Shown one piece after another: positions 7,613 through 49,152 of a stretch of DNA of 64,000 nucleotides (position 1 is its first letter; each line of letters opens with the position of its first letter). Where the stretch lies: the NCBI GenBank assembly GCA_003219415.1, contig QHOS01000026.1:20371-84370 (forward strand), given 5' to 3'. The stretch comes from Verrucomicrobiota bacterium. GTDB taxonomy: Bacteria > Verrucomicrobiota > Verrucomicrobiia > Chthoniobacterales > UBA10450. The translations under genes were made by a program, and so were the position numbers. The notes under the pieces were generated by a model. The model saw nothing but the letters and a program-made list of their open reading frames with translations. It made no database searches and was not told where the DNA came from.

Positions 7613-9538
7613 TCAGTCGTTCACGTCGTATTCTCTCAAGCGCGGCAACAACTGTTCAAGAATCGTCGCAACAGATTCATCGACGGTCTGTTGATCGGTG
7701 CGCACAACAATCTCCGGGTCTTCGGGCGCTTCGTAGGGGGCATCGATGCCTGTGAATTCACGAATCTGGCCAGCCCGCGCTTTTTTGTAGAGATGTTTGG
7801 GATCGCGCGCCTCGCAAACCTCCAGCGGCGCATCAACGAAGACTTCGATAAACTCCGCGTTGCCCTCCAGCGCAATCTCGCGCGCGCGGCTACGATCCAT
7901 GCGGTAAGGAGAGATGAACGCGGTAATCACTACTGTGCCGGCATCGGCCATGAGCTTGGCGACTTCACTTACGCGGCGAATATTTTCCACCCGGTCGTCG
8001 GGCGAGAACCCAAGATTTGAGTTCAACCCATGTCGAATGTTGTCACCGTCGAGCACGTACGTATGCATACCACGAAGGAACAGCTCGCGTTCGACTGACT
8101 GAGCAATGGTCGATTTCCCGGCCCCAGAAAGGCCAGTCAACCAAACAACTGCTCCCCGATGGCCGCTCCGCACTGCTCGCGCGTTGGCGGTAATTTTTCC
8201 CTCGGTCCAAAAGATATTTTTGCTTTTTGTAACGGTGCGATCCGTGTAGACGCCGCCGAAAATCGTTCCGCCACCACAAATTTGGCCGTCGTCGATGATG
8301 ACAAACCGTCCGAGGTCCGGAATGCGGTCGTGGTTGTCGATGACAAGTGGCGCCCGGGTTTGGATTGTGAGTCTGCCGATCTCGTTTCGCTGCAATTGTT
8401 CGCGTGCGTCACTCTTCGTCTCCAGTGTCGAGGAATCCATGACTCGCTCGATCGATACGACCTCACATTTCACGTCCTGAGTCGCCAAGCGAAGGCTGTA
8501 CAAATGTCCAACACGCAGTGGCTCGCGCACGATCCAGAAAAGGTCTGCATGAAAACGATTTGCCTCGATCGGCGTTTCGTTTTCGCGCGATGCGACATAG
8601 CCTCGCTCGACAAAAATCTGCTCGCTAAGGGTGATCCCAATCGAATCTCCCGCGACGGCCGGGCCATTTTCCTGCGCGTTCCAGCGCTCGATCGTAGCGA
8701 CCACAGACGCCTTGTTAGCCGGTGAGAACACGAGCTGATCCCCCGCCCTTAGCGTTCCGGTCTCTATCCGGCCTGCAATAATCCGGCGCCCATCGAAGCG
8801 ATAAACATCCTGAACACAAAAGCGAAGTGGAAGATCGACATCGCGCTCCTGCGGTCCCAGCGAATCGAGTGCTTCGAGGACACTCGCCGCGCCGTACCAT
8901 TTCATTTTCGCACTTGCCTGCGCGACATTCTCGCCTTCCCTGGCGGACGCGGGAATAAACGTCCGTGCTTCCAACCCAAGCTCGCGAAGAAACTTTCGAT
9001 ATTCCTGCTCGATCTCGCGAAATCGTTTCTCAGAGTAATCCACAAGATCCATCTTGTTTACGACCACGATGAGATGCTTGATGCCAAGCATGCTCAGCAG
9101 GTAGGCGTGACGGCGACTCTGTTCGCGCACACCTTCGTCGGCGCTGATCACCAGGATGGCCGCGTCGGCTCTCGACGCGCCCGTGATCATGTTCTTTAAG
9201 AATTCCTTGTGCCCTGGCGCGTCGATGATGGCGTATTGGCGCCGCGGCGTTCGAAAAGGAATTTCCGTCGTGTCGATCGTGACGTTTTGTTTTTGCTCCT
9301 CAAGAAGCGCGTCGAGTAAAAAGGCGAATTCAAATCCCATTCCCTCCGCTGCGCATGCCTTTTTTATTTGCTCAATCTTGCCTTCAGGAAGCGAGCCGGT
9401 GTCATGCAAAATGCGACCGATCAGCGTGGACTTCCCGTGATCGACATGACCGACGAAAACGACGCGGAGCGTCGGCGCCGCTGATGATTGCGGATTGCGG
9501 ATTGCGGATTGCGGATTTGTCTGCTCCATCAGATTCAC
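7613..9538 (-). CDS. cysNC: Sulfate adenylyltransferase subunit 1 / adenylylsulfate kinase fusion (CysN-CysC)
   Basis: [37 protein letters not shown], then APS kinase [15 protein letters not shown]...[20 protein letters not shown] start at 9538. Confidence 0.95.
9486..9520 (+). repeat. Heptanucleotide tandem repeat, four exact GATTGCG units plus a partial unit
   Basis: gattgcg x4 at 9486-9513 then gatttgt; lies within the 5' coding region of cysNC. Confidence 0.95.
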
Positions 9539-9899
9539 GACCAGGGAGCGCGACGCGCTGTCTTAATCGATGCGACGATGGTCGCCAGCAACTCGCCCGT
9601 TTCAACATGCAGCTTCGCCAGCCGCGAGGGCTTAAGAAGTTTGAGTGTCATAATTACTTCCATCCAGTACGCTGCCTCATCGCATTCTTCCTCGACAATG
9701 CCTAGTTTTGCGACGAAGTCAGCTCGCGACTTGGCGCGTGCCGCTGCGCGATAGTTTGCTCCGACGGAAGTTCCGGCGCGCAACAATTGCTGTCCAATTT
9801 CTCGAGCAGCGTCGCTTCTGGGCAAAAATCCACTGCGCGAACGACCCGAATTCCGAATTCAAAAGTACGCTCTCTGAGTTCTTGTGCTGTCATACGCAT
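9535..9899 (-). pseudogene. Four-helix-bundle protein (23S rRNA intervening-sequence / TIGR02436-like), apparently frameshifted
   Basis: N-terminal half MTAQELRERTFEFGIRVVRAVDF (frame of ORF 9702..9929) continues in another frame as LPRSDAAREIGQQLLRAGTSVGANYRAAARAKSRADFVAKLGIVEEECDEAAYWMEVI; one base appears missing in the A5/T5 run at 9824-9828. Confidence 0.8.
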
Positions 9900-9904
9900 A
9901 GTTT

Positions 9905-9939
9905 GCAATCCGCAATCCGAACTCCGCAATCCGCAATTA
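9905..9939 (+). repeat. Heptanucleotide repeat arm: GCAATCC GCAATCC GAACTCC GCAATCC GCAATTA
   Basis: Read directly; reverse-complement family of the repeat at 9486-9520; contains the cysD stop codon (TTA at 9937-9939 on +). Confidence 0.95.
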
Positions 9940-10755
9940 CAAGAATCCCTTCGCCCTCAACTTCTGCATGGCATTCCGTTCGTAATGGTCCTGCGCGCGG
10001 CCGGCGCGCTCAGTCGTCTTTGTTGCTTCCAGTTCGGCAATGATCTCGTCGATCGTCGAAGCAGTGCTCTCGATGGCTTGCGTGATGGGACTACAGCCCA
10101 ACGACCGAAATCGTCTTCCGTTTCGAGCGAAATACATTTGTGGAATGGGAATGTTTTCCCGTTGTATGTAGCGCCAGATATCTACCTCGGTCCAATCGAG
10201 CAACGGTTGGATGCGAACATGTTCTCCTTTGGCGGCTGTGGTTACGAATTGGCTCCAGAATTCAGGAGGCTGATCCTTGTAGTCCCATTCAAACTGCGCG
10301 TTGCGCGGCGAAAAATATCGCTCCTTCGCGCGAGTTGGATCTTCGTCGCGCCGAATGCCCGTGATCAGCGCGTCCCATTTGTACTCTGCAAGCACCTGCT
10401 GCAAGGCTACGGTCTTTAACTCGTGTGTGACCGTTACGGGGTCGTGTGTCTCATAACCAATCCCACGGGCGCGGGCTTCGGTATTGATTTTGACGATGAG
10501 ATTGAGGTTATGATGTTTCGTTGCCCATTCGCGGAATTCCAGCATTTCCGGGAATTCGTAGGTCGTGTCGATATGCAGAACCGGAAAGGGAACGCGGCCG
10601 AAGAAAGCCTTGCGCGCGAGCCAGACGAGAACGTTTGAATCCTTGCCCATCGACCAGGGCATGGCGATATTTTTGAAAACGTGATACGCCTCGCGGAAAA
10701 TAAAAATGCTTTGATTCTCGAGATCGTCGAGATGAGTGCGCTGGATATTGGTCAT
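9937..10755 (-). CDS. cysD: Sulfate adenylyltransferase subunit 2 (CysD)
   Basis: HLDDLENQSIFIFREAY, PWSMGKDSNVLVWLARKAFFG, HIDTTYEFPEM, GIRRDEDPTRAKERYFSPR, GCSPITQAIES. Confidence 0.97.
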   Translation of the reverse strand: MTNIQRTHLDDLENQSIFIFREAYHVFKNIAMPWSMGKDSNVLVWLARKAFFGRVPFPVLHIDTTYEFPEMLEFREWATKHHNLNLIVKINTEARARGIGYETHDPVTVTHELKTVALQQVLAEYKWDALITGIRRDEDPTRAKERYFSPRNAQFEWDYKDQPPEFWSQFVTTAAKGEHVRIQPLLDWTEVDIWRYIQRENIPIPQMYFARNGRRFRSLGCSPITQAIESTASTIDEIIAELEATKTTERAGRAQDHYERNAMQKLRAKGFL

Positions 10756-10815
10756 GTCTAGGTAGTGGCGGTTCTATACAATCGGCAGGCGCATGCTGCA
10801 AGAAAGGGAGAGCAA

Positions 10816-10946
10816 AGTTCCAAATCTCAAGTCCCAAATTTCAAGGAAATCCTAACCCTTCAATACTCAAATCAGTAATGCACTATTATTTTGGTATTTG
10901 GACCTTTGAAGTTTGTTTGGAACTTGGGGTTTGGGATTTGGAGCTT
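10816..10946. repeat. Inverted pair of degenerate 7-bp repeats (CCAAATC/TCAAGTC/CCAAATT ... TTTGGAA/CTTGGGG/TTTGGGA/TTTGGAG)
   Basis: Arms about 10816-10850 and 10889-10946 in the cysD/nuoB intergenic region. Confidence 0.85.
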
Positions 10947-32833: not shown

Positions 32834-33414
32834 GCAACGTTAGAGAGGATCGACACGTCGAAGGCGACTGGTGGCCGGACCCGATCCCGCAAAACGTCGA
32901 GTTTGGCGAGGGATTCTATTGCGAGAGCGCGCAAATCTTTCGGAGAATCCGGAGCAAAAAATCAGGTGCTATCGTTATCGGCAAACACGTTTCGTGTTAC
33001 GCCGGCTGTTCGTTTTCCGTCGGCGAGAAGGGCCAGTGCACGATAGGCGATTTCACGCTGCTAAACGGCGCCCTGATTATGGCAGATGAGAAGATCGAGA
33101 TTGGGTCGTATTGCTTGATTTCGTGGAACGTCGGGATCGCGGATTCCGATTTTCACCCGCTCGAACCGGCCCAGCGTCTCATCGACGCACAAGCTCTCGC
33201 GCCGTATTTCAAGGATCGGCCTGCGCGTCCCAAGTTGAAAACCGCACCTGTGAAAATCGCGGACAACGTCTGGATCGGGATGAACGCAGTGATTTTGAAA
33301 GGCGTCACCATCGGCGAAAACTCGGTCGTGGCCGCGGGAGCGGTCGTCACTAAACCCATTCCACCGAACACAGTCGTGGCAGGAAATCCAGCTGTGGTAG
33401 TTCGGCAATTGTGA
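32830..33414 (+). CDS. Hexapeptide-repeat (LbH) acyltransferase
   Basis: NVWIGMNAVILKGVTIGENSVVAAGAVVTKPIPPNTVVAGNPAVVVRQL. Confidence 0.92.
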   Translation: MSNVREDRHVEGDWWPDPIPQNVEFGEGFYCESAQIFRRIRSKKSGAIVIGKHVSCYAGCSFSVGEKGQCTIGDFTLLNGALIMADEKIEIGSYCLISWNVGIADSDFHPLEPAQRLIDAQALAPYFKDRPARPKLKTAPVKIADNVWIGMNAVILKGVTIGENSVVAAGAVVTKPIPPNTVVAGNPAVVVRQL

Positions 33415-33502
33415 TCAGTGACCAGTGATCCGTGATCAGTCCAATGCATCTCGAATACTCGCTCCGTTCACTGTTCACTGTTCACTGATCACCGTTCACC
33501 TG
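33411..33502. repeat. Inverted pair of 7-bp tandem repeats (GTGATCA/GTGACCA/GTGATCC/GTGATCA ... GTTCACT x3/GATCACC/GTTCACC)
   Basis: Arms 33411-33440 and 33466-33502 read directly; left arm contains the upstream gene's stop codon. Confidence 0.95.
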
Positions 33503-33509
33503 TTGCCAT

Positions 33510-49035: not shown

Positions 49036-49152
49036 GGTCAGAATGACGAATTAAACGCGAGGAGTAAATGACGAACTGGACTTGGTTGCGAAGATCTAGT
49101 CATTTGGATTTTATTCATTCCTTCGTCATTGGTCATTCGCCATTCGTCATTT
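49036..49152. repeat. 7-bp repeat arm TTCGTCA/TTGGTCA/TTCGCCA/TTCGTCA (49122-49149) with partial inverted partner (TAAATGACGAA, 49065-49075)
   Basis: Read directly; 11-bp perfect inverted match TAAATGACGAA/TTCGTCATTTA. Confidence 0.85.

Follow-up and report, generated by a model that had tools for sequence, protein, structure and literature searches.

We find that a segment between the sulfate-activation genes cysD and cysNC of a Verrucomicrobiota bacterium is probably a decayed copy of a minimal mobile element. The segment spans positions 9486 to 9939 of a 64,000-nt window of contig QHOS01000026.1 (the window is the whole stretch of DNA analysed, and its positions are used throughout). As read from sequence comparisons, the element would consist of one four-helix-bundle (4HB) gene within terminal inverted repeats that are themselves tandem arrays, with a unit of 7 bp or sometimes 6 or 8 bp. 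By 4HB we mean the S23/IVP family covered by the profiles TIGR02436 and PF05635. An initial annotation had marked the segment as a candidate mobile cassette; comparative evidence indicates that this candidate is real, general and mobile.

The inverted heptamer arrays that the annotation placed at 9486-9513 and 9905-9939 were confirmed. Tandem-repeat analysis of the window detected 4.6 error-free copies of GATTGCG at 9486-9517 and 4.7 GCAATCC-type units (84% matches) at 9905-9937, with 387 bp between the arrays. They pair over 31 bp (9487-9517 with 9907-9937), with 29 identical positions, two mismatches and a score of 27. Both arrays are far beyond chance. As had been described, the left array lies in the 5' coding region of cysNC, where it is translated within the CysNC N-terminus (..QSAIRNPQS..), and the right one reaches into the stop codon of cysD. 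The open reading frame (ORF) that they enclose does belong to the family to which it had been assigned. The 96-amino acid ORF (9535-9825, minus strand) scores 71.1 bits against TIGR02436 (E = 8e-20, curated cut-off 24) and 49.8 bits against PF05635 (E = 1e-12, cut-off 33.8). It is not, however, an intact gene, as discussed below.

Matched arms at 4HB loci in many phyla

Paired arrays accompany 4HB genes well beyond cysD. Twelve 4HB profile hits in the window's own genome correspond to 11 loci, two hits being pieces of one locus, and all 11 have inverted arrays, as the annotation's reasoning predicted. Ten pass a paired-arm score test (scores 17 to 29), for which mispaired flanks of other loci served as the null (mean 11, maximum 17); the eleventh (L007/L010, a fragment) has weaker arrays that were recognised by eye. 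The repeat unit differs at nearly every locus (GTTGAGA, GAAGTGA, CAACGCC, an 8-mer such as AAAAGGTT or a 6-mer such as CTTTCA), and despite this locus-specific unit the left and right arrays of each locus match as reverse complements. For the best 4HB locus of a genome, paired arrays were also found nearly always in surveys of 29 more genomes of the family and 30 of the phylum; three mispaired comparisons in one of these surveys scored very high (48, 87 and 106), perhaps because of related flanks. The share at or above the threshold was 75% for 80 named loci (Bacillota, Planctomycetota, Pseudomonadota, Bacteroidota, Chloroflexota, Acidobacteriota, candidate phyla and others), against 2.3% for mispaired flanks (n = 640) and 2.3% for random gene-sized positions on the same contigs (n = 474).

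The copies share a common layout. Of 97 arms, 75 have an array period of 7 bp and 17 one of 8 bp. Among 97 cases that could be decided, the arm 5' of the ORF is rich in G in 90 (loose common unit YAGKKRN), and the span from arm to arm is about 470 bp. Of 103 copies, 75 are co-directional with both neighbouring genes; the median distance is 8 nt from the upstream stop codon and 9 nt to the downstream ORF. Most copies sit in a short intergenic gap between genes of one orientation, and the 3' arm can there come to form the beginning of the downstream gene, as it has in cysNC. An exception to co-directionality is the 4HB cassette between nrdB and nrdA on the Nostoc edaphicum plasmid pNe_5 (L185), which lies on the opposite strand. 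Very long arms, with more than 200 bp of mirrored 7-bp units on each side, flank a 4HB gene at 2501-2860 of the Planctomycetota contig JACRIP010000419.1 (L105).

The arms match each other and travel with the ORF. Arm similarity between loci rises with ORF identity, from 0.16 (below 30% identity) to 0.55 (above 75%), and the two arms of one copy reach 0.73 on the same scale. In the Nostoc-type lineage, ORFs that are 78-83% identical in DNA at different plasmid sites carry the same arm unit. Pairing of the arms in register beats pairing one unit out of register at 62 of 70 loci. Furthermore, 85 of 152 deviations from the unit consensus are mirrored in the other arm, and therefore the arms change together. 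The arrays are no bystanders; they form the ends of the element.

Gain and loss of the cassette

We compared the cysD-cysN junction among congeners, 17 of whose 19 contigs were readable there. An empty site, which the annotation had named as a check, exists in one relative (L060), where nothing is inserted and the CysNC N-terminus starts quite differently from that in the window. Other congeners hold a variety of occupants. Orthologous 4HB cassettes with GATTGCG/GGATCGC arms are present in three (L052, L059 and L063), and the contigs of two more (L061 and L062) end at or just after an array of this type. A different 4HB cassette, with TGGATAC arms, occupies the junction in L046, L047 and L057. 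Decayed or ORF-less hairpins are found in L050, L054, L055 and L048, and a solo one-sided array of the AACGCTCAACGTCC type, with neither partner nor ORF, in L051, L056, L058 and L064. When the same ORF was sought at two sites within the genus, only relatives of 61-63% identity were found, at one other junction. Of the other 4HB loci in the window's genome, several have an empty counterpart in one or more of three close relatives; this is presence/absence polymorphism with no clean junction, because the flanks have been replaced.

Clean junctions come from plasmids. In the clearest case, a 4HB cassette in Nostoc-type plasmids of Trichormus variabilis and Scytonema is missing from plasmids of about 97% identity, which have neither the ORF nor the arrays. 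Three further plasmid sites agree (4HB gene plus arrays versus neither) at a lower identity of about 83-95%. These pairs support the proposal that ORF and arrays entered as a unit; such comparisons show the two being gained and lost together, and the cassette looks mobile.

Cyanobacterial plasmids also carry dispersed copies of 170-190 bp that have no ORF but the same arms. One derivative, of 182 bp, interrupts the 4HB gene of L198 as a clean insertion when compared with L199, and shows a target duplication of 0-1 bp. A 5-bp duplication (GTAAT) can be read at the plasmid site of 97% identity, and the other plasmid sites are too diverged for such a reading. A fixed 5-bp target duplication, considered on the basis of the GTAAT site, was withdrawn after the L198 result. 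The 170-190-bp derivatives on four Nostocales plasmids (L200, L201, L202 and L203) have a similar interior with apparent hairpins, which gives the impression of an RNA or DNA structure being maintained. On two Nostoc plasmids (L234 and L235, positions 120-500), second derivatives are nested in an older derivative at the same intergenic spot, which is evidence of repeated insertion into each other.

The protein itself is under purifying selection, with a ratio of nonsynonymous to synonymous substitution rates (dN/dS) of 0.10-0.15 between ORFs at different sites. This suggests that it matters to the element or to its host.

Alternative explanations

The arms might owe their matching to RNA pairing and not to movement, with the cassette being an intervening sequence that RNase III processes from mRNA. 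The intervening sequences of rRNA are cut by RNase III in their stem (PMC4990558), and most copies described here are co-directional within gene rows. However, arm mismatches show no excess of sense-strand G.U compatibility (78 are compatible on the sense strand and 83 on the antisense strand). RNA pairing is therefore not an evident reason for arm matching, and we rejected selection on an RNA stem as its keeper. This count speaks against a role in arm matching and not against processing. We consider the explanation as a whole rather unlikely. A reverse transcriptase is a very improbable mover, although the 4HB family resembles Avd (PMC10053308), a 4HB protein of the same fold from diversity-generating retroelements, of which the cassette would then be a relative, and although the profile NF033474 gave a match below its cut-off. 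An RVT_1 profile search returned no match in the window's genome (96.5% complete) and none in six of ten copy-rich genomes. We rejected this mover for the window's genome.

Two further explanations separate the arrays from the gene. The arrays could be pre-existing targets, that is, independent inverted heptamer hairpins resembling miniature inverted-repeat transposable elements (MITEs) or repetitive extragenic palindromic (REP) sequences, with the 4HB gene inserting into the loop. The same genera do contain ORF-less hairpins and solo arrays, including those at cysD-cysN in some congeners and one pair in the window at 10815-10945, but the plasmid empty sites are free of arrays, the arms accompany the ORF lineage to new sites, and the ORF-less copies share the ends of the full element; this order of events is improbable. 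Alternatively, nothing moves, and these are ordinary, often-lost 4HB genes around which slippage builds arrays and hairpin-driven correction mirrors the arms. In favour of this, tandem arrays and quasi-palindromes mutate readily, and at many congener sites the differences extend beyond the cassette. Yet the clean joint gain of arrays and ORF on plasmids with 97% identical flanks argues strongly against such an account, as do the dispersal of ORF-less copies, one of them inserted into a gene, and the presence of different cassettes at the single cysD-cysN junction. We regard it as extremely improbable.

A possible route of movement

If the cassette is a mobile element, its 4HB protein would bind the element's own folded arms and make it competent to move, and would act in trans on ORF-less derivatives. 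Cutting and joining would fall to a host enzyme, most likely a Y1/HUH transposase, that works on the element as a folded single strand. Fold-back copying of one arm from the other would keep the arms matched while the unit drifts. The near-absent target duplication in the cleanest case would fit a single-strand, hairpin-using mover, with which one arm could serve as template for the other. Our leading guess for the mover is an HUH (Y1) transposase supplied by the host, a candidate whose Y1_Tnp domain occurs in 32 of 32 4HB-bearing and 10 of 20 4HB-free genomes (~1e-5, hypergeometric; genomes chosen non-randomly). The full route, with host enzyme and arm copying, is possible but doubtful. To our knowledge, the 4HB protein has no catalytic motif. 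Its closest structural match is Xanthomonas campestris XCC0516 (PDB 2gsc), and the solved structure of a family member is a pentamer (PMC4990558).

Several points weigh against a mobile element. No movement has been observed directly, and the window copy is broken and old. The 4HB gene is the only gene between the arms; the element encodes no recombinase and no transposase of known type. Readings of target duplication are inconsistent, with 5 bp (GTAAT) at one site and no more than 1 bp at a second. Clear arms are missing from about 20% of the named loci, which may reflect decay, a non-mobile branch or a limit of the test. The loci outside the window's genome were the strongest family hits, and for this reason the pass fraction may be overstated. 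Finally, genome size and kinship both confound the association with Y1, and the genome sampling was non-random.

The window copy and its surroundings

The window's 4HB gene is broken near 9825-9830, within a short T run (Table 1). The 96-amino acid ORF is without the N-terminus of the family, and the N-terminal 23 residues, starting at an ATG at about 9893, are in another frame. Orthologues at the same junction (L063 and L059) have an intact 4HB frame. The break may be a sequencing error in this draft genome. From these comparisons, the copy is best read as a decayed, older insertion common to several congeners, and not as a fresh arrival.

Table 1. Parts of the cassette and its host genes, in window coordinates.
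Feature	Position	Strand	Basis and remarks
5' arm of cassette (in 4HB gene orientation; unit GGATTGC, G-rich strand reading towards the ORF)	9905..9939	-	Repeat and arm-pairing analysis; overlaps cysD stop codon 9937-9939
N-terminal piece of 4HB gene, MTAQELRERTFEFGIRVVRAVDF; frame differs from the rest	9826..9893	-	Agrees with intact orthologues L063 and L059
Rest of 4HB reading frame, TIGR02436/PF05635	9535..9825	-	ORF and profile matches
3' arm of cassette, CGCAATC on the minus strand, 4.6 perfect units	9486..9517	-	Translated as CysNC N-terminus residues
Host gene cysNC, 5' end now including the 3' arm	7613..9538	-	N-terminus unlike that in empty-site relative L060
Host gene cysD	9937..10755	-	ORF analysis and comparison with relatives

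Arrays without an ORF occur elsewhere in the window. Upstream of cysD, at 10815-10945, is an inverted heptamer-array pair of the CAAATCC type with a spacer of about 70 bp; it resembles a derivative formed by deletion within an element of this kind, though one of a different lineage. A second ORF-less inverted pair (GTGATCA/GTTCACT, 25 bp paired, spacer of about 30 bp) lies at 33411-33504, and a solo array of TTCGTCA at 49122-49151. We discarded a reading of the window arrays as clustered regularly interspaced short palindromic repeats (CRISPR), as the units are contiguous tandem copies with no spacers.

Relation to known elements

The likeness to an intervening sequence, which the annotation had noted, is real. 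The 23S rRNA intervening sequences with an S23p ORF in Leptospira and Coxiella share the protein family, a similar size (428 nt in Coxiella), inverted-repeat borders and tandem heptamers before the ORF; in Coxiella the heptamer is GACAGAT, and the sequence is excised by RNase III (PMC4990558). Mobility of rRNA intervening sequences has been proposed before (PMC4990558). The window cassette likewise has an S23p-type ORF, inverted-repeat borders and heptamers adjoining the ORF, but lies between cysD and cysNC and not in a 23S rRNA helix. More generally, the cassettes described here differ in being numerous and located in protein-coding operons and plasmids, in having a repeat unit particular to each copy, and in having ORF-less derivatives. 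None of the loci compared carried at least two of the 23S rRNA motifs sought, the rRNA copy itself being compared through the literature only. The element is a variant of the rRNA intervening sequences that lives outside rRNA.

MITEs and their parent insertion sequences likewise have terminal inverted repeats, ORF-less derivatives with the same ends (here in the Nostoc-type lineage) and presence/absence polymorphism. In contrast, the 4HB parent has no recognisable transposase, its tandem-array ends vary from copy to copy, and its target duplication does not appear to be constant. Elements of the REP/REP-associated tyrosine transposase (RAYT) and IS200/IS605 (Y1/HUH) groups are likewise small and hairpin-ended, with little or no target duplication, as in our cleanest case; the 4HB element, however, carries no Y1 gene, and its ends are long tandem arrays. 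Avd is a 4HB relative that works with a reverse transcriptase and a template repeat, whereas no reverse transcriptase was found in the window's genome.

Heptamer arrays of Xanthomonas (GGGAATC, many in inverted pairs) and Nostoc have been described without a source (PMC4692102). These Xanthomonas arrays and the short tandemly repeated repetitive (STRR) sequences of cyanobacteria resemble the arms in being intergenic, 7-bp tandem units in inverted pairs, and X. campestris encodes the 4HB protein XCC0516. They were published as repeats with no link to a 4HB gene and are likened here by description. Among open-licence papers, we found none that joins a 4HB gene and inverted heptamer arrays as a mobile element.

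Implications

Our findings place the 4HB (S23/IVP) proteins, which are common in bacterial genomes with no assigned role, as the single gene of what would be a widespread mobile element. An old suggestion about rRNA intervening sequences thereby becomes a testable case, with empty sites, derivatives and many copies. We tentatively propose, with somewhat less than even confidence, a class of bacterial mobile elements present in many phyla, whose only protein would be a 4HB protein with no known catalytic motif. Its heptamer-array ends would be rebuilt from one another at each move, hence the lineage-specific unit. The intervening sequences of rRNA would derive from this class, as would the heptamer repeats that have long gone unexplained in cyanobacteria, Xanthomonas and others. 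The element is a possible source for repeats described separately in Coxiella, cyanobacteria and Xanthomonas. It may also explain the 4HB genes that have been reported near CRISPR loci in mining studies (PMC3936711; PMC10910872). The joint change of two arms while their unit drifts is a new question in repeat biology, and annotators could recognise and date such insertions inside operons.
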